From the NCBI GenBank assembly GCA_949293335.1, contig CASFDA010000011.1, forward strand, positions 1 to 55,962: a DNA stretch of 55,962 bases. The letters are read 5' to 3'. The translations under genes were made by a program, and so were the position numbers. This DNA comes from an uncultured Spirochaetales bacterium. Its GTDB lineage: Bacteria > Spirochaetota > Spirochaetia > Sphaerochaetales > Sphaerochaetaceae. The notes under the pieces are model-generated. The model ran no database searches. It had not been told where the DNA came from and was given only the letters and a program-made list of their open reading frames with translations. This document shows positions 3,666-54,124 of the stretch, piece by piece. The stretch's first letter is position 1, and the number at the start of each line of letters is the position of its first letter.

Positions 3666-3680
3666 TTCCTTTCCTCCTTT

Positions 3681-6644
3681 TCAGATGGAAATGATCGCTT
3701 CGGATGTACGTGCACTTACCTTTATCGTGAGATCCTTTCTCGTATAAAAATGCAGGAAGTGCTTGGTTTCTCCGGCGATCTCCAGTTTTTCTAATTTGTC
3801 ATAGGTGAACATTCCATCCCCATGGATTGGATTTATGTTCATGTAGATTGTACCAAGGCTGGTGAGATTTTGGAAGAAATGGGTACCCTGGCTTGGCTCT
3901 GTGTCCATTTCCCTGATCCCAGTCTCGACTATTACCCTGGCTTTTGATATCTGACTCCAGATACATGGAATTCCAAGCCATCTGTCGCTGGACCCAAGTC
4001 TTCCTGCGACGATAAGCAGGTATTCTGAATTGATCTCTTCGTTGATGAGTTCAAGTTCCTTTGCCATCTCCAGTGTCTCTTCTTTCCTGAATGCATCCAG
4101 TTTTATGGCAACTATGTCGCGCAGACCTGATATGATGCCGTTCCCCATTATTGTCTTTGCGTAGACAAAGGCATTCTTCCTGTCGTTTTCGGTTATTTCA
4201 ATGTCAGCTCCTCCGGGAGATGAGGAGATCGGCCTTATCTGGAGAATCACGATATTGGCTTCTCCGTCCCTGTCTTCGACGGCAAACTCGATCTCAACAG
4301 GCTCTGCCATTGCTTTTTGTCCGAGCCTGAGCATGTCAAAAACTACTTTTGCGAGAGGGAACATGTCATATTTTATGATTCCGTTGAATGTGAGAATCTT
4401 TTCTCCAGATGCACTCCTGCTTTCGCTCAGCATCCCTGTCGAGCTTTCGATAGTCGAGAATGTTCCCTTCTGCACATCCTTGTAGTTCAGTATCTCTTCC
4501 AGCGGAATAGATACTAGATTGTCTGTATTCTCGAGTGGATTGAATTTTCTTTCCATGTCGAGAGCATAGAAACTATCCTGAGGGCTTTTGCTGATTCCCT
4601 GTGTTATTACTGCGGGTTTTTTAGGTTTCCCAGGAGAGAATCTGAAGGCCCTTCCACCGTCTACTATAGTCTTTCCGAAGCCGAGGGCAAGAAGGGCAAT
4701 CCCGTCTTCCTGGCTTTGCCCTGGAGTGGGGTAATAGTTGAGGCTTCTCGCAACTCCACTTATCCACGGGAAGAAATACCTTCCCCTCCGTTTTCCCACA
4801 GCCTCCTCGATGATCACGGACATCTTCTCCTCCTCAAGTCCGTGTTCCGTTCTCTCCAGATATTCTCTTGCCCCTTTTGAATATGTGCTTGCCCAGACGG
4901 TTTTCACCGCCTTCTCAAGATCTTCAAGACGGTCCTCGAAACTTCCTATGTTTGGAATCATGGAAGTCTGGTAGACACCTGCAAATGGCTGGAAATGTGA
5001 ATCTTCCAGCAGCGATGATGATCTGACTGACAATGGATATGATGTGAACTTGATGACTTCGCTCAGCTCCTCAGAGAGGCGCTTTGGCAAGTTTTTCGAT
5101 AAGAACAACTTCAATATTTCTTCATCGTTGTTTTTTATGAAATAAAGCGACAGAAGATCATTTTCCTGCATGAACTGATCGAAGTATTCGGTTGTCACGA
5201 CGACAGTGCGCGGTACAGATAAGGTATAGGAGGGGAATTTGCCGCTTGCCTTGTTCGCATGCATCTCCATTGAGATGAATGCAAGCCCGCGCCCTTTTCC
5301 TCCAAGAGAACCTTTCCCTATCCTTGAGAAGTGGAGAGTCTCGTCATAGTGGTCCTTTGAGAATGTTGCGATTATTCCTTTTGATCTCTCGCTCCGGTAG
5401 TCCCTAATAGTATTGTAAAGCTTCAACCTCGTCTCTTCGCTGCTTTCCTTGTCGTTGAGGTTTATGCCTTTGATCATTGATGCCAGACGATAGAGAGACT
5501 GAGCCCTCAGCCATCGGGAGAAATCATTTCTCCTGCTGTGGTAGACAAAGGATTCGATTGGTATCGTCTTCAGATACCGTTGCACTTCCTTCATCGTCTC
5601 GGCCCTTCCTATTTCTTTTCCTGTTGCAGGATCTTTGAATATGAAAGGACCGAAGTTGTAGAACTCCAGAAAATACTTCTCAAGATCCATGAAGAGGGAA
5701 GGGGAGAGCTTCCAGATGAATTCAAGCCCATAAAACTTCGCTTTTTCCTGATGTTGTTTTTCTCTCGACTGGATGAGAATAGGAACTTCCTTGCTCCGTT
5801 CCCTGATCATCGCGCTCAGCTCGAATCCCGCTTCCTCCTTTCCGCTCTTTCCTGGAAAAGAGACATCAGAGATCACACCAAGTACATTCTTCTCGTACTT
5901 CAGGTAAAGCTGCCATGCCTCTCCGAGGTTCTGGGCCAGCACGATCTTCGGCCGCCCGCGCATTCTCAGAGTCTTTCCCCATTCGTTCATCGCTTCAAGT
6001 ATGCTCGTCCTGTTCTGATGGATGAGGCATGTATATATCTGAGGCAGATATGATGATATGAAGCGTACAGAATCTTCTACCAGTATTATCACCTGTACGT
6101 CAGCCTCTTTCGTATCATGATCAATGTTCATCTGATCTTCGATAAGTTTGATCATCGCAAGAAAAAGTGAAGGTGAGCCCTGCCAGTAGAACATGTAATC
6201 TATGTAGGGGCAGTTTGTCCCTTTCAGCTCTTTTGCCTTCCTGTGGTCTGGCGAAGGAGAGAGCACTATGAATGGCATTCTCGAGTCAAGTTTCTTGACA
6301 TCTTCTGCGAGTTTCTCAACTTTTCCGCTTTCGAGGTCCAGCATCGAGATTACAAGATCGAACTTGAGTTTTCTCAAAGCTTCAAGCGCCTCGTTCTCAT
6401 TGTTCACATGGGTTATCTTCGGAGGATTTGAAAGCCCCAGATCTGTGTATTCGTTATATAGTTCCTCTTCAACTCTTCCGTCCTCTTCAAGCATGAACCT
6501 GTCGTAGTCGGAGCAGATGAGCAGGACATTGTAAATATGCCTTAGCATGAGGTTTGAAAAAGGAACCCAGGTCTGATCAAGTAGATACATAGTATGGATT
6601 TTAGCATCAATGATTTTCATTGACGACTCAACTTTTGACATCAT
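3681..6644 (-). CDS. receiver-domain protein with PEP-synthase/PPDK-like nucleotide-binding region
   Basis: A large soluble protein of about 987 residues. The N-terminal third looks like two response-regulator-type receiver folds. The second begins near VIILVEDS and has an ISDVSFPGKSG segment with a plausible phospho-acceptor Asp, followed by PILIQS and a conserved Lys. The middle and C-terminal parts resemble the ATP-grasp region of PEP synthase and pyruvate phosphate dikinase: SLGGKGRGLAFI and YPLSVRSSSLLEDS followed by FAGVYQTSM. I see no phospho-histidine swivel domain or PEP-binding TIM barrel, so full dikinase activity is doubtful. ATGs at 6644, 6641 and 6620 are all possible and none has a clear ribosome site; a TTG at 6674 would overlap the divergent gdhA. 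The alcohol dehydrogenase follows 15 bases downstream. Function unknown. Confidence 0.7.
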   Translation of the reverse strand: MMSKVESSMKIIDAKIHTMYLLDQTWVPFSNLMLRHIYNVLLICSDYDRFMLEEDGRVEEELYNEYTDLGLSNPPKITHVNNENEALEALRKLKFDLVISMLDLESGKVEKLAEDVKKLDSRMPFIVLSPSPDHRKAKELKGTNCPYIDYMFYWQGSPSLFLAMIKLIEDQMNIDHDTKEADVQVIILVEDSVRFISSYLPQIYTCLIHQNRTSILEAMNEWGKTLRMRGRPKIVLAQNLGEAWQLYLKYEKNVLGVISDVSFPGKSGKEEAGFELSAMIRERSKEVPILIQSREKQHQEKAKFYGLEFIWKLSPSLFMDLEKYFLEFYNFGPFIFKDPATGKEIGRAETMKEVQRYLKTIPIESFVYHSRRNDFSRWLRAQSLYRLASMIKGINLNDKESSEETRLKLYNTIRDYRSERSKGIIATFSKDHYDETLHFSRIGKGSLGGKGRGLAFISMEMHANKASGKFPSYTLSVPRTVVVTTEYFDQFMQENDLLSLYFIKNNDEEILKLFLSKNLPKRLSEELSEVIKFTSYPLSVRSSSLLEDSHFQPFAGVYQTSMIPNIGSFEDRLEDLEKAVKTVWASTYSKGAREYLERTEHGLEEEKMSVIIEEAVGKRRGRYFFPWISGVARSLNYYPTPGQSQEDGIALLALGFGKTIVDGGRAFRFSPGKPKKPAVITQGISKSPQDSFYALDMERKFNPLENTDNLVSIPLEEILNYKDVQKGTFSTIESSTGMLSESRSASGEKILTFNGIIKYDMFPLAKVVFDMLRLGQKAMAEPVEIEFAVEDRDGEANIVILQIRPISSSPGGADIEITENDRKNAFVYAKTIMGNGIISGLRDIVAIKLDAFRKEETLEMAKELELINEEINSEYLLIVAGRLGSSDRWLGIPCIWSQISKARVIVETGIREMDTEPSQGTHFFQNLTSLGTIYMNINPIHGDGMFTYDKLEKLEIAGETKHFLHFYTRKDLTIKVSARTSEAIISI

Positions 6645-30141: not shown

Positions 30142-30509
30142 ACATCAAGATTTATCTTGCTGATGATGAAGGCGAGAAGTTCATGGGAATAGGTGTTCTC
30201 TGGCTGCTGGAGGAGATCGGAAAGGAAGGATCTCTCAAGAAGGCCAGTGAGAAGCTCTCTCTTTCGTATTCCAAGTCATATCACATGATCAAGAATGCAG
30301 AAGAGAAGCTCGGCATGATTCTTCTGGACAGAAAAAAGGGGGGTATAGAGCGTACGGGTGCGTCTCTGACCCCCTTTGCTTTGAAATTCATATCCCTCTA
30401 CAGGGATTTCCAGGGCAAGGTCAAGGAACTTGCAAAAGAACCGTATGAAGCGTTCTCCATGGACCTTGCAGCTTTGAAGGAGGAGTTTTCAGATGGAAAA
30501 ACAGTATGA
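30132..30509 (+). CDS. ModE-N-type winged-helix regulator
   Basis: A 125-residue protein resembling the N-terminal DNA-binding domain of ModE: a LysR-like winged helix with GVLWLLEEIGKEGSLKKASE and SYSKSYHMIKNAEEKLGMIL. It lacks the C-terminal molbindin domains that bind molybdate, so metal sensing is doubtful. It overlaps the aminotransferase by 10 bases and the phosphofructokinase by 17, and probably acts on its own operon. Target not known. Confidence 0.75.
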   Translation: MELNIKIYLADDEGEKFMGIGVLWLLEEIGKEGSLKKASEKLSLSYSKSYHMIKNAEEKLGMILLDRKKGGIERTGASLTPFALKFISLYRDFQGKVKELAKEPYEAFSMDLAALKEEFSDGKTV

Positions 30510-31818
30510 TTTTGAAATTGAGACGCTGGGAGAATGCAAGAGGTCCAGCCCTATTATCATGAGCTCAAGACGGGGCGACGGGATATCTGATTATGTTTCA
30601 GACAATGACCGGATCCTCTATGACATAGACACGATGGAGGTTGGCGGCAAGACTGTACCTGTGCATGCGGATGCTGTCCAGCTTGCAGGTCCAAGGGAAC
30701 ATATCTATTTCAATCCAAGCCATGTTCATGCGGCAATCTGCACATGCGGAGGTATTTGCCCAGGGCTGAACAATGTCATCAGAGCTGTCGTGAGATGTTT
30801 CTGGTATCGTTACGGGGTACGCCGGATCTCTGGTATCCAGTATGGCTATCTGGGACTTCTGGAGAACTCTCCGTGGCCGATAATCCCTCTGGATCCAGAT
30901 GTGGTCGATGATATTCAGGAGAAGGGTGGTACTATCCTTGGTTCAGCCAGAGGGGGTGGTAAACAGGTTGAGGAGATCGTCGATTCCCTTGAGAGGATGA
31001 ATATAAACATCCTGATCACGATAGGAGGAGATGGAACACTCCGTGGCGCGTATGACATCGGAGAGGAAATCAAGAGAAGAGGCCTCAAAATCGCAGTTGT
31101 AGGAGTTCCTAAGACAATAGACAATGATCTTTCCTTCATTGATTCCTCTTTCGGTTTTGACACAGCGGTCACATCCGCAGTTCCTTCTGTCCGGGGTGCC
31201 CACGTGGAGGCGAAGAACAGTATCAACGGCATAGGATTGGTCAAGGTGATGGGAAGGGAGTCTGGATTCATAGCGGCTTCCACATCCTTGGCCCAGTCTG
31301 ACGTGAATTTCTGCCTTATTCCTGAATCTCCGTTTGATCTTGAAGGGCCGAATGGACTGCTTGAGAATCTCAGAAGGCGAATACTTGAACGAGGGCATGC
31401 TGTCATACTGGTAGCAGAGGGTGCAGGACAGGATCTTGTTCCGCCTACAGGGGAGACCGATGCTTCTGGAAACGTCAAGTTCCAGGATATCGGACTGTTC
31501 TTGAAGAAAAAGATTGCAGACTACTTCAGGGAACAGGGCATTCCTACTTCAATAAAGTATATAGATCCATCTTATATTATTCGCAGCGCACCGGCAGACA
31601 GCTATGATTCGATCTATTGTGCACGTCTCGGAGCACATGCTGTACACGCGGCGATGGCGGGAAAGACGCAGTGCATTGCAAGCAGGGTCAACAATCAGTT
31701 TGTGTATCTTCCAATCAAAGTGGCAGTATCCAAGAGAAGCCATGTCGATGTCGAAGGGTCCCTCTGGCGCGATGTACTTGAGAATACCAGACAGCCGTTC
31801 TCGATGAAGAATAATTGA
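30493..31818 (+). CDS. 6-phosphofructokinase, TP0108-like
   Basis: A 441-residue phosphofructokinase of the long bacterial/spirochaete group. It has TCGGICPGLNNVIRA (84-98), GGDGT (178-182) and PKTIDND (206-212). The residue pair that sets donor choice is Gly181 with Lys207. Gly at the first position marks an ATP-using enzyme; Lys at the second is the pyrophosphate-type residue. This mixed pair is known in ATP-dependent enzymes of this clade such as trypanosome PFK, so ATP is the expected donor. AAGGAGGAG precedes the start. A terminator follows at 31843. Confidence 0.88.
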   Translation: MEKQYDFEIETLGECKRSSPIIMSSRRGDGISDYVSDNDRILYDIDTMEVGGKTVPVHADAVQLAGPREHIYFNPSHVHAAICTCGGICPGLNNVIRAVVRCFWYRYGVRRISGIQYGYLGLLENSPWPIIPLDPDVVDDIQEKGGTILGSARGGGKQVEEIVDSLERMNINILITIGGDGTLRGAYDIGEEIKRRGLKIAVVGVPKTIDNDLSFIDSSFGFDTAVTSAVPSVRGAHVEAKNSINGIGLVKVMGRESGFIAASTSLAQSDVNFCLIPESPFDLEGPNGLLENLRRRILERGHAVILVAEGAGQDLVPPTGETDASGNVKFQDIGLFLKKKIADYFREQGIPTSIKYIDPSYIIRSAPADSYDSIYCARLGAHAVHAAMAGKTQCIASRVNNQFVYLPIKVAVSKRSHVDVEGSLWRDVLENTRQPFSMKNN

Positions 31819-31842: not shown

Positions 31843-31871
31843 GGGAAGGTCAGATGCCTTCCCTTTTTTTT
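31843..31871 (+). terminator. rho-independent terminator after phosphofructokinase
   Basis: GGGAAGG (31843-31849), 7-base loop, CCTTCCC (31857-31863), then eight T. Confidence 0.9.
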
Positions 31872-32061
31872 GTGCGAAAAGTCAATGAATGAAGGGATTG
31901 CAGAATAGTGTCCGTTTCTATCAAATGTTACATGAATATGGAAACTCTATCTGATGGTCATCAGCGTTACATTGGTTTTGGATTTGTGTTACGGAAAAAC
32001 AGTCAAATAAATATTATCTTCCACTATTTTTCATAAGTCAAACAAAAAATAAAAAATTTTT
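31872..32061. other. AT-rich gene-free stretch
   Basis: No open frame of note. GTTAC occurs at 31927, 31966 and 31988, with GTTACAT at the first two. A strongly A/T-tracted segment (32040-32061) adjoins the small-RNA promoter and could act as an UP element. Confidence 0.4.
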
Positions 32062-32077
32062 TGAAAAGTACTTTTCA
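32062..32077. promoter_or_regulatory. perfect 16-bp palindrome over the -35 of the sRNA candidate
   Basis: TGAAAAGTACTTTTCA is a perfect inverted repeat. Its right edge TTTTCA (32072-32077) is also the candidate -35 box of the downstream RNA. This arrangement is typical of a repressor operator; the binding protein is unknown. Confidence 0.5.
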
Positions 32078-32100
32078 TAACCCTTTAAAACAGTTATATT
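32072..32100 (+). promoter_or_regulatory. candidate promoter of the sRNA
   Basis: TTTTCA (32072-32077), 17-base spacer, TATATT (32095-32100). Predicted start near 32107, exactly at the first base of the 5' hairpin. Confidence 0.5.
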
Positions 32101-32106
32101 ACAGGT

Positions 32107-32201
32107 GGAATCAAGGAAATCACATATCATTCCTGGTTCCCAAACCTCCTTTTGTTCCCCTCAAAGCGGTTTACCTCCTTTTGTCCGCTGAGGGGTTTTT
32201 T
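32107..32201 (+). ncRNA. candidate ~95-nt small RNA with two anti-Shine-Dalgarno motifs
   Basis: Three parts are visible. A 5' hairpin pairs 32107-32118 with 32130-32140 (one bulge, one G-U). A single-stranded linker holds ACCTCCTTTTGT at 32144-32155. A terminator hairpin pairs CCCCTCAAAGCGG (32157-32169) with CCGCTGAGGGG (32185-32195) and ends in six T; its 15-base loop holds a second ACCTCCTTTTGT (32173-32184). Both copies contain ACCTCCTTT, the 16S 3'-tail anti-Shine-Dalgarno sequence, and both are predicted unpaired. It is free-standing between two convergent genes. Known analogues are the C-rich-loop sRNAs such as RsaE/RoxS. Existence as RNA is inferred from promoter, structure and terminator. 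Confidence 0.6.
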
Positions 32202-35429: not shown

Positions 35430-36992
35430 TTAGATCAGTTTTTCCGCAAATGCGGAGAGCACTTTGTCTCCACCGTCACCCTTGAGTACTTTCTTCGCAA
35501 GTACTTTACCGAGCTGTACTCCTTCCTGATCAAAGGAGTTTAGATTCCAGACCAGTCCCTGGAACATGACTTTGTTTTCGAAGTGCGAAAGGAGCGCTCC
35601 GAGAGCTTTCGGTGTCAGCTTTTCTCCATAGATGAGGGAGGATGGCCTTTCCCCATAGAATTTCTTGTTTTCGTCCTCATCGTCTTTTCCAAGAGCAAAG
35701 GCAACGATCTGCGCTGCGAGATTCGCATTCAGTTTTGTCTGGCTGCTAGACCCGTCGGTGATGGTATCAAAGCCATATTGTGAATTTTTAAATCCAATGA
35801 ACTGGAGAGGCACGATGTCTGTTCCCTGATGCAATAGCTGATAGAATGAATGCTGTCCATTCGTCCCAGGCTCTCCGAAGATTATCGGGCCGGTCTTGTA
35901 TGAGATCTTCTCGCCGAATCTGTTAACACTCTTTCCGTTTGATTCCATGTCGAGTTGCTGGAGGTGCGCAGGAAAGCGTGAGAGGGCCTGCGAATACGGA
36001 AGTATTGCTGTCGCCTCATATCCGAGCACGTTCCTGAGGTATACACCGATGAGAGCGTCCATCAGCGCGCCGTTTTTCTCGATATCCTCTTCAAGTGAGA
36101 GCAAATCCTCTTCGTGGGCACCTTCGAGAATCTCATTGAATGTATCAAAGCCATATGCGAGAGAAAGTACTACTGCGCCTACCATCGATGTGCTCGAATA
36201 ACGTCCTCCGATGAAATCATCGATGAAGAAGGACTTGAGCATTGATTCATCATGTGCGAGCGGACTTGTCTTGCTGGTGACTGCCACCATGTGCTTCTTC
36301 GGATCAAGTCCTTTGACTGGAGATGATTCAAGAGTCTTCAGCACCAGATCCCTGTTTGTCAGAGTCTCCTGTGTAGTCCCGCTCTTCGAGACAAGGATGA
36401 ATAGGGTAGTCTCGAAATCAAGTGATTTGATCACTTCAGCCGCATCATCTGGATCTACATTCGAAATGAAGTATGCATCCATCTTCCTCTCGTATCCCTT
36501 CAATGCGATGTAAAGTGCCCTCGGGCCTAAATCGGAACCGCCGATTCCAATCTGACAGACTTGTTTGAAAGCCTTGCCCGTTGAACCTTTTATTTTTCCT
36601 TCGTGAACAAGAGCAGAGAACTCCCTTATCTTTTCAAGTTCGTTCTTGTAGAAATCCTCTTTGTTCTCATCTTTGTAAACAACAGGTACACCCAGTACGT
36701 TTCCTCTTGTGAGATGGTGAAGGACAAGCCTCTTTTCTCCAGTGTTCATCATCTCTCCAGAAAGTATCATCTTGTACTTTCCGATCAGATCCTGCTCTTT
36801 TGCCAGGGCCTTCAGGGCAGAGATGGCCTGATCTCCCACAGGCATCGCCGCATAGGAATAGGTGAGGCCTCCTCCGATTCTGATCTCTTTGCTCTTTACC
36901 CTCTCTTCATCAAGCAAATCATGGAGTTTTTCCCTTTTTGCCCCCATGAGGGTGGAAAACGCCTTCAATTGGTCAAAATTTGCGAATTCCAT
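35430..36992 (-). CDS. pgi: glucose-6-phosphate isomerase
   Basis: The 520-residue enzyme interconverts glucose-6-phosphate and fructose-6-phosphate in glycolysis. Family signatures: GIGGSDLGPRALY, SKSGTTQETL, GGRYSSTSMVGAV, GEPGTNGQHSFYQLLHQG with the catalytic Glu/His region, and the C-terminal SFDQEGVQLGK with the catalytic Lys. Length is normal. It follows argR with a one-base TGATG overlap, an unusual operon partner, so pgi expression may be tied to arginine control. Confidence 0.96.
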   Translation of the reverse strand: MEFANFDQLKAFSTLMGAKREKLHDLLDEERVKSKEIRIGGGLTYSYAAMPVGDQAISALKALAKEQDLIGKYKMILSGEMMNTGEKRLVLHHLTRGNVLGVPVVYKDENKEDFYKNELEKIREFSALVHEGKIKGSTGKAFKQVCQIGIGGSDLGPRALYIALKGYERKMDAYFISNVDPDDAAEVIKSLDFETTLFILVSKSGTTQETLTNRDLVLKTLESSPVKGLDPKKHMVAVTSKTSPLAHDESMLKSFFIDDFIGGRYSSTSMVGAVVLSLAYGFDTFNEILEGAHEEDLLSLEEDIEKNGALMDALIGVYLRNVLGYEATAILPYSQALSRFPAHLQQLDMESNGKSVNRFGEKISYKTGPIIFGEPGTNGQHSFYQLLHQGTDIVPLQFIGFKNSQYGFDTITDGSSSQTKLNANLAAQIVAFALGKDDEDENKKFYGERPSSLIYGEKLTPKALGALLSHFENKVMFQGLVWNLNSFDQEGVQLGKVLAKKVLKGDGGDKVLSAFAEKLI

Positions 36993-52387: not shown

Positions 52388-54124
52388 ATGGTTGATGAGA
52401 CAAGACTAGGGAAGATAAGACATTCGATGGCCCATGTAATGGCAGAGGCTGTCATCGAGATGTTTCCCAGTTGCCAGATAGCAATCGGACCAGCGATTGA
52501 GAATGGCTTTTACTATGACTTTGACCTTCCGCGTCCGCTTACGGAAAGTGATCTGGAAGAGATCACAGAGAGGATGAAGAAGATCATAAGCGAGAACAAG
52601 GAATTCAAGCGAATAGTCGTCTCCAGGGATGAGGCGAAGAAAATCTTCAAGGACCAGAAATACAAGCTTGAGCTTCTGGATGCGATTCCGGAGGGCGAGG
52701 AGGTCAGCCTTTATAATCAGGGGGCATTCACCGATCTTTGCCGTGGCCCTCACGTAGAGTCGACAAAGGAGCTCAACAAGGATGCGTTCAAACTCCTTTC
52801 AATCGCGGGCGCGTACTGGAGGGGAAAAGAGACAAATCCGATGCTTACCCGTATCTATGGAACAGCATGGGAGAATTCCAAGGATCTGCGCCTGTATCTT
52901 GAACACCTCAGTGATATAGAGAAGAGGGATCATAGGAAGATAGGCAAGGAACTCGATCTCTTCAGCCTGCATGAAGAGGCAGGTCCGGGACTCGTGTACT
53001 GGCATCCGAGGGGAGCAAGGATCAGGAACACCATCGAGAACTTCTGGAGAGAAGAGCACTACAAGAACGGATATGAGCTCGTCTATACCCCGCATGTAGG
53101 GCGTTCATGGCTCTGGGAGACTTCAGGACATCTCGGCTTCTATAAAGAGTCAATGTATCCTCCGATGGAGATGGACAAGAGTGACTACTATGCCAAGCCG
53201 ATGAACTGTCCTTTCCATATCATGATCTATCAGAACTCGAAGCACAGCTATCGTGAACTTCCGTTCAGATGGGCAGAGCTTGGAACTGTGTACAGGTACG
53301 AGAAGGCAGGTGCTCTCCACGGTCTGATGAGGGTGCGTGGTTTCACTCAGGATGACGCACATCTGTTCGTAACTCCTGAACAGATGGATGATGAGATTCT
53401 CGAAGTCCTGCGCTTCAGCCTCTATATGCTCCATTCATTCGGTTTTGATGACATCCATGCATACATATCGACAAGGCCCGAAAAGTCTGTAGGGGATGAG
53501 AAGATGTGGGAGGATGCTACAAAGGCCCTGATGAAGGCTGTTGAGAAAGAAGGGCTGAAATTCGACATCGACAAAGGCGGTGGCGCATTCTACGGTCCGA
53601 AGATCGATCTGAAGGTCAAGGATGCGATCGGAAGGGAATGGCAGCTTTCCACTGTGCAGTTCGATTTCAATCTTCCAGAGAGATTCAAGCTCACATTTGT
53701 TGACAAGGATGGAGTTGAGAAGAGGCCATACATGATTCACAGGGCACTTCTCGGCTCGATCGAGAGGTTCTTCGGTGTTCTCATCGAGCACTACGCAGGG
53801 GCATTCCCGCCATGGCTCAGCCCTGAGCAGGTGATGGTTATCCCTGTTGCGGAGAGCACGAACGAGTATGCGAAGGAGATCTTCAGAAAGCTCCGTGCCG
53901 ATGGTTTCAGAGCAGAGATTGATCTGTCGAACGACAGGTTCAATGCAAAGATCAGGAAAGCACAGCAGCTCAAGATCCCATATATGGTCATCCTTGGAGA
54001 GAAAGAGATGAATAGCTCGCTTCTCTCGATCAGGGAAAGAACTGGAAAACAGAAGAACGGCCTCAGCTATGAAGAATTTGCCAAGGCCCTCAAGGAGAAG
54101 ATAGATTCCAAGAAACAGCTTTGA
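52388..54124 (+). CDS. thrS: threonyl-tRNA synthetase lacking the TGS domain
   Basis: A 578-residue ThrRS that charges tRNA-Thr. It begins directly with the editing domain: H12 and H16 in RHSMAH, and C118/H122 in CRGPH. The usual ~60-residue N-terminal TGS domain is missing (typical length 640). The catalytic core has MNCPFH (zinc Cys), FRWAELGTVYRYE and LHGLMRVRGFTQDD; the C-terminal anticodon domain is intact. The start follows AGGAGGAGAT; the terminator ends 10 bases before, leaving no room for an upstream TGS. Confidence 0.95.
   Translation: MVDETRLGKIRHSMAHVMAEAVIEMFPSCQIAIGPAIENGFYYDFDLPRPLTESDLEEITERMKKIISENKEFKRIVVSRDEAKKIFKDQKYKLELLDAIPEGEEVSLYNQGAFTDLCRGPHVESTKELNKDAFKLLSIAGAYWRGKETNPMLTRIYGTAWENSKDLRLYLEHLSDIEKRDHRKIGKELDLFSLHEEAGPGLVYWHPRGARIRNTIENFWREEHYKNGYELVYTPHVGRSWLWETSGHLGFYKESMYPPMEMDKSDYYAKPMNCPFHIMIYQNSKHSYRELPFRWAELGTVYRYEKAGALHGLMRVRGFTQDDAHLFVTPEQMDDEILEVLRFSLYMLHSFGFDDIHAYISTRPEKSVGDEKMWEDATKALMKAVEKEGLKFDIDKGGGAFYGPKIDLKVKDAIGREWQLSTVQFDFNLPERFKLTFVDKDGVEKRPYMIHRALLGSIERFFGVLIEHYAGAFPPWLSPEQVMVIPVAESTNEYAKEIFRKLRADGFRAEIDLSNDRFNAKIRKAQQLKIPYMVILGEKEMNSSLLSIRERTGKQKNGLSYEEFAKALKEKIDSKKQL

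Follow-up and report, generated by a model that had tools for sequence, protein, structure and literature searches.

A predicted small RNA with two anti-Shine-Dalgarno motifs next to the phosphofructokinase gene of a spirochaete, and its relatives in the class Spirochaetia

The window analyzed here, a stretch of 55,962 nucleotides from an uncultured Spirochaetales bacterium, contains a gap of 658 bases between the end of a phosphofructokinase gene (31818) and the start of the next open reading frame (32477). The initial annotation had described a complete small RNA (sRNA) unit carrying two copies of an anti-Shine-Dalgarno (anti-SD) motif. All the parts of this unit, namely promoter, 5' hairpin, linker and a terminator with six U, were located between 32072 and 32201.

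The sRNA unit and its predicted fold

The features of the window referred to in the text are the following.

32107-32201, plus strand: sRNA gene (start estimated from the position of the -10 box, end placed at the U tract)
32072-32100, plus strand: sigma-70-like promoter, TTTTCA at 32072-32077, 17-base spacer, TATATT at 32095-32100, 9 of 12 matches
32107-32140, plus strand: 5' hairpin, predicted in most homologues with a sequence that varies among subgroups
32144-32155, plus strand: anti-SD motif 1, ACCUCCUUUUGU, in the single-stranded linker
32157-32195, plus strand: terminator hairpin, stem 32157-32169 with 32185-32195, compensatory changes among relatives
32173-32184, plus strand: anti-SD motif 2, ACCUCCUUUUGU, in the terminator loop
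32196-32201, plus strand: U tract of the intrinsic terminator, six T
30493-31818, plus strand: pfk, ATP-dependent 6-phosphofructokinase (NF005301), the usual upstream neighbour of the sRNA
31843-31872, plus strand: pfk terminator, between pfk and the sRNA unit
35430-36992, minus strand: pgi, glucose-6-phosphate isomerase, adjacent to the sRNA and convergent with it in several other families
3673-3681, minus strand: ribosome site AAAAGGAGG of an Fe-alcohol dehydrogenase, the target named in the initial annotation

The sequence ACCTCCTTTTGT was found twice on the plus strand (32144-32155 and 32173-32184) with a spacing of 29 bases, once in the linker and once in the terminator loop, exactly as first described. 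The only further copy in the 1.92-Mb genome lies on the opposite strand and forms the ribosome site of a gene; the reversed pattern has 0 occurrences in the same genome. Folding of the unit returned an energy of -30.9 kcal/mol (z = -3.0), a value equalled by 0 of 200 shuffled sequences. The predicted probability of being unpaired, calculated per base on the transcript 32107-32201, was 0.68-1.0 for motif 2 and 0.5-1.0 for motif 1, in agreement with the earlier prediction that both copies are exposed; when the start was placed at 32104 (GGU...) instead, the ACC of motif 1 paired with that GGU in the minimum-energy fold. A TATATT-like -10 box occurs at the equivalent position in the relatives of the same genus and, because pfk has its own terminator, the sRNA unit looks independent. 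A small peptide was considered as the product and rejected, as the RNA has no ATG and contains GTG and TTG frames only.

A second RNA element was observed elsewhere in the window, a T-box leader (RF00230, 52101-52336, plus strand, 110.9 bits) directly upstream of thrS, encoding threonine--tRNA ligase (52388-54124). T-boxes are seldom found beyond Firmicutes and some other phyla.

Conservation, distribution and genomic context

A DNA search detected a homologue in 33 of the 35 other Candidatus Ornithospirochaeta genomes, with E values of about 1e-12 or better. A strict pattern requiring both motifs and the terminator gave one match each in 97 of 395 Spirochaetia genomes, and its reversed control gave 0 matches among the same 395. 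The named genomes matched include Sphaerochaeta, Bullifex porci and Ornithospirochaeta, together with many uncultured Spirochaetales; S. halotolerans 4-11 and Sphaerochaeta sp. S2 are among those carrying the RNA, and a looser pattern brought in the treponeme-like genomes of family f24. A covariance model (R1) was built from sequences outside the genus of the window, and this search, which the initial annotation had advised, recovered the window copy with 42.6 bits and an E value of 1.2e-8, the runner-up scoring 13 bits. R1 also had matches with E values of up to 0.1 in 46 of 80 additional genomes, most of which lacked a pattern match; many of the weaker matches retain only the terminator hairpin with a ACCUCCUUU loop and are regarded as candidate relatives. 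Several families carry two or three such RNAs per genome according to R1, which gave no match in four genomes of family f19, three genomes from outside the class, or a 1.1-Mb genome (G111). The plasmid collection contained no match to the sRNA, and no Rfam family reached its gathering score on it.

Pattern matches outside the spirochaetes (L051, L072, L083, L089, L090 and L139) look like chance and were discarded. One of them, on a contig of a Nanoarchaeota MAG (L051, at about 2829, reverse), shows two copies of CCTCCTTT, a C/G-rich hairpin and then a T run, and is probably a chance match or a binning error. A record labelled Cloacimonadota (L162) bears the RNA between pfk and pgi-argR in a spirochaete-like arrangement and is probably misbinned.

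Alignments of the homologues were then compared with the predicted fold. As MAFFT misaligned the stems in the mixed alignment A1, subgroup alignments were taken instead. In A3, whose 11 ungapped sequences were selected solely on length, 98.3% of the pair cells were standard, five pairs had changed on both sides, and the covariation score was reached by 0 of 500 shuffles. The 18 sequences of A5, drawn from many families, gave 98.9% standard pair cells and six pairs changed on both sides; the 100% pairing of A2 is circular, since this alignment was picked by fold. The stems vary, but almost no variation is seen in ACCUCCUUU (motif 1) or CCUCCUUU (motif 2), and motif 2 was predicted to be fully unpaired in the loop of 79 of 81 distinct homologues. 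A 5' hairpin is predicted for most homologues, with differences between subgroups. In the aligned sequences, both motifs are conserved while everything else in the predicted sRNA changes. Loss of the loop motifs and compensatory stem changes in close relatives had been named beforehand as evidence against the sRNA; in these relatives the motifs proved nearly invariant and the stem changes compensatory, and conservation supports the reading of a putative sRNA with two anti-SD copies. Judged from this conservation, it is near certain that the sRNA gene in the 658-base gap is real.

Two variants of the architecture were noted. In Sphaerochaeta (L055, L076, L081, L135 and others) the simple 5' hairpin gives way to a strongly conserved 5' part, AGAAAGAGAACGACATGCTTCTG...AAATCGGATTTTTTCTA, in the roughly 90 bases that precede motif 1; some of these leaders contain a short reading frame, which is broken in L052 and was dropped from consideration. 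In family f8, L380 (reverse) and L381 (forward) show, at about 1440-1560, a tandem of two hairpins whose loops, some 14 bases long, both contain ACCUCCUUU.

The genomic context was evaluated on loci with at least 3 kb of upstream sequence. A pfk gene lies on the same strand, no more than 6 kb upstream, in 49 of 67 distinct loci, and ends within 700 bases in 40 of them. Convergent pgi genes were found downstream in 18 of 63 loci, and pgi is the immediate neighbour of the sRNA in 20 loci, which mostly belong to other families or genera; the window differs in having gdhA and a DUF1846 gene between the two. In several families the sRNA sits between pfk and pgi, both genes of glycolysis, which points to a connection with carbon metabolism. 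Treponeme-like loci keep both motifs outside the pfk/pgi synteny. In one treponeme-like genome a TD-2 RNA (RF03162; L350:868-988, plus strand) was observed about 0.5 kb upstream of the sRNA; it belongs to another sRNA family, already in Rfam, and is a separate element with AYGGAY-type loops that does not overlap the sRNA.

An intrinsic terminator downstream of pfk might be conserved simply as a transcription terminator or 3'-UTR element, with nothing acting in trans, and the model matches from other families that consist of the terminator hairpin with its ACCUCCUUU loop could be read in this way. We consider this explanation highly improbable: pfk is followed by its own terminator and a promoter lies in between, a terminator needs neither a fixed loop of 8-10 bases nor a second copy in the linker, and both motifs are kept in treponeme-like and other loci that have no pfk nearby.

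Likeness to the 16S tail and candidate targets

The assembly of the window's own genome comes without 16S, and the 16S tail was therefore taken from relatives. In six of them the 3' end is GGATCACCTCCTTTCT, so that each motif copies the ACCUCCUUU stretch of the anti-SD, which is common to the sRNA motifs and the spirochaete 16S 3' end; the initial annotation had made the same identification. Duplexes were then predicted for the 57 genes of the own genome with a strong SD, AAAGGAGG, before ATG. The duplex with motif 1 was stronger than that with the 16S tail in 48 of the 57 genes, with energies ranging from -12.8 to -22.2 kcal/mol, and the best one was formed over 14 bases with ACAAAAGGAGGTTT of a kduD-like gene. 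The Fe-alcohol dehydrogenase first proposed as a target does carry a 9-base complement (3673-3681, minus strand), and its duplex energy falls in the lower half of the 57.

Complements of 10 bases single out a kduD-like dehydrogenase, a dapA-family aldolase, a xylulokinase and a TRAP transporter permease as candidate targets. Within the genus, a start-proximal 12-base complement precedes the kduD-like gene, a sodium-translocating pyrophosphatase and an amino-acid-type ABC ATPase, as well as a putative permease in two species (named by eye only) and two transport-like proteins that have no family match. Outside the sRNA, neither the 12-base complement nor AAAAGGAGGT occurs more often than in reversed controls; therefore, no selected target set is demonstrated. 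A special target set defined by the extended complement was accordingly rejected, the 12-base site being as rare as the reversed control, and kduD was rejected as a conserved target, because its orthologue occurs in one other genome only, where AAAAGGAGG is kept and the extension is lost. The classes of candidate genes partly mirror which genes bear strong SDs. Given this lack of enrichment, and because transport genes often have strong SDs anyway, the genes listed are candidates only.

Fixed motifs would also be expected if the RNA bound a protein, and it might copy the 16S 3' end to sequester one that recognizes ACCUCC-like sequences, such as Era, a ribosomal protein or an RNA chaperone, in the manner of the CsrB-type RNAs for CsrA. 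The finding that extended complements are not enriched speaks for this view. Two identical exposed motifs that stay fixed amid changing stems are typical of protein-decoy RNAs too, and the motif equals the 16S tail. Era binds GAUCACCUCC. However, the bases before ACCUCC vary in the sRNA (AA, CUA, UCG, UUU) where 16S has GAUC, so the Era site is not copied, and the UGUU that follows motif 1 is kept in most of the family, which extends the pairing to ACAAAAGGAGGU and not the likeness to 16S. We regard such titration as unlikely.

A further explanation concerns the breadth of action, since any AAAGGAGG site can pair and the genome contains 73 sites of the AAAGGAGG-N3-10-ATG type versus 24 in the reversed control. 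The sRNA might cover strong SD sites unselectively, as a global brake on translation induced under stress by an alternative sigma factor. The promoters of other families, including the treponeme-like ones, are of interest in this respect: a TGTAAC(C/T)-N16/17-(T/G)GTTT pair was found 56-74 bases before motif 1 in 29 of 124 distinct upstream regions, versus 2.8 expected from shuffles, and resembles an ECF-type promoter, perhaps one read by an ECF-type sigma factor. The pair was seen in families other than f1 (e.g., L034, L035 and L353). However, the promoter in the genus of the window looks sigma-70-like, and the spread of the duplex energies given above means that selectivity is possible. We therefore hold a general brake to be quite improbable.

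Proposed mode of action and relation to known systems

The reading that we prefer, with a probability of roughly 0.7, is that of a trans-acting sRNA with two redundant anti-SD seeds that blocks ribosome binding on strong-SD mRNAs; we infer its expression, its pairing in vivo, its targets and the direction of regulation. The gene looks free-standing, is single-copy, and belongs to a family present through much of the class Spirochaetia. Its two seeds, predicted to be exposed in the linker and in the terminator loop, are each identical to the 16S 3' tail over ACCUCCUUU, with an extra U (and GU in the genus of the window), and each could form a duplex of 9-14 bases with strong SDs of the AAAAGGAGG type. 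Such duplexes would block 30S binding and reduce the translation of a group of strong-SD mRNAs. Several of the candidates are involved in nutrient uptake and carbon catabolism, which fits the place of the sRNA beside pfk and pgi. The seeds would act redundantly and probably without canonical Hfq. A search for canonical Hfq (PF17209) returned no match in 12 genomes, while the identical search was positive in 5 of 14 control genomes; Borrelia has a divergent Hfq (PMC5216591), which the Pfam model possibly misses.

A broader and rather doubtful idea is that the copy of the 16S tail competes with 30S subunits for strong SD sites collectively, or captures a factor handling the 16S tail, which would amount to class-wide translation control without canonical Hfq, with a switch from a sigma-70-like to an ECF-like promoter between families.

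Apart from Borrelia, knowledge of sRNAs in Spirochaetia is scarce, and here one family outside Rfam spans Sphaerochaeta, gut spirochaetes and Treponema-like genomes. As canonical Hfq was undetected in the 12 genomes, the family makes it possible to study base-pairing regulation without it. To our knowledge, an anti-SD sRNA of this kind was not previously known in the spirochaete phylum; the literature on spirochaete anti-SD RNAs and Sphaerochaeta sRNAs that was accessible outside subscription journals contained nothing on this sRNA, and priority is uncertain to that extent.

The sRNA is a new family of a known functional kind. It shares with anti-SD sRNAs as a class a free-standing unit with its own promoter and terminator, recognized here by sequence only, and an unpaired conserved sequence complementary to SD sites. 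RsaE/RoxS RNAs bind SD regions through C-rich single-stranded seeds. The initial annotation had compared the sRNA with them, and the mode of working through C-rich loops holds, whereas the anatomy is closer to that of LhrC and of the cuckoo/alpha-r14 RNAs; RsaE/RoxS gave no Rfam match at the gathering score or at E values up to 5, and differs in motif and phylum. A UCCC motif has been discussed in this connection (PMC4132741). CJnc230 of Campylobacter is also similar, being a 98-nt RNA with two stem-loops around a single-stranded stretch and a putative anti-SD motif (PMC11187230), but it has one short motif (CCUU) and is RpoN-dependent.

LhrC of Listeria (RF00616) was the best, although weak, Rfam match, with 25.9 bits (E 0.032) against a gathering score of 110, and membership of that family was rejected on this basis. 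Its redundant CU-rich sites are distributed over a loop, the linker and the loop of the terminator (PMC4132741), and the sRNA resembles it in its length of about 100 nt and in carrying redundant sites in linker and terminator loop. The motif differs, being CUCCC..UUUU in LhrC and ACCUCCUUUU here, and Listeria has five copies of the RNA versus one in the window's genome.

The cuckoo/alpha-r14 RNAs (NfeR1 in Sinorhizobium, CcsR1-4 in Rhodobacter) likewise repeat an ultraconserved anti-SD motif in unpaired regions between divergent stems, thus providing redundant seeds (PMC10746234, PMC10253847). NfeR1 has three such motifs and silences ntrBC by occluding the ribosome site (PMC10746234), and the CcsR operon is transcribed from an alternative sigma promoter (PMC10746234, PMC10253847). 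Identical motifs kept while stems diverge are equally found in the spirochaete family, and its L380 and L381 members, with two hairpins and ACCUCCUUU in each loop, are cuckoo-like. The differences concern the motif, which is CCUCCUCCC in the hairpin loops of the cuckoo RNAs and ACCUCCUUUU, the full 16S tail, in the spirochaetes, the presence here of two motifs with one copy in the linker, and the lineage, Spirochaetia versus Alphaproteobacteria. The DUF1127 association of CcsR/cuckoo (CIN1 locus) was not found among the neighbours examined in the window, which are pfk and the DUF1846 gene, followed by gdhA and pgi.

Since defining features of cuckoo/alpha-r14 and of LhrC are absent, the sRNA was classified as working like both rather than as a member of either. 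Known here from its sequence and predicted fold, it would act as these RNAs do, and anti-SD RNAs of similar logic (cuckoo, LhrC and the spirochaete sRNA) would then occur in at least three phyla.
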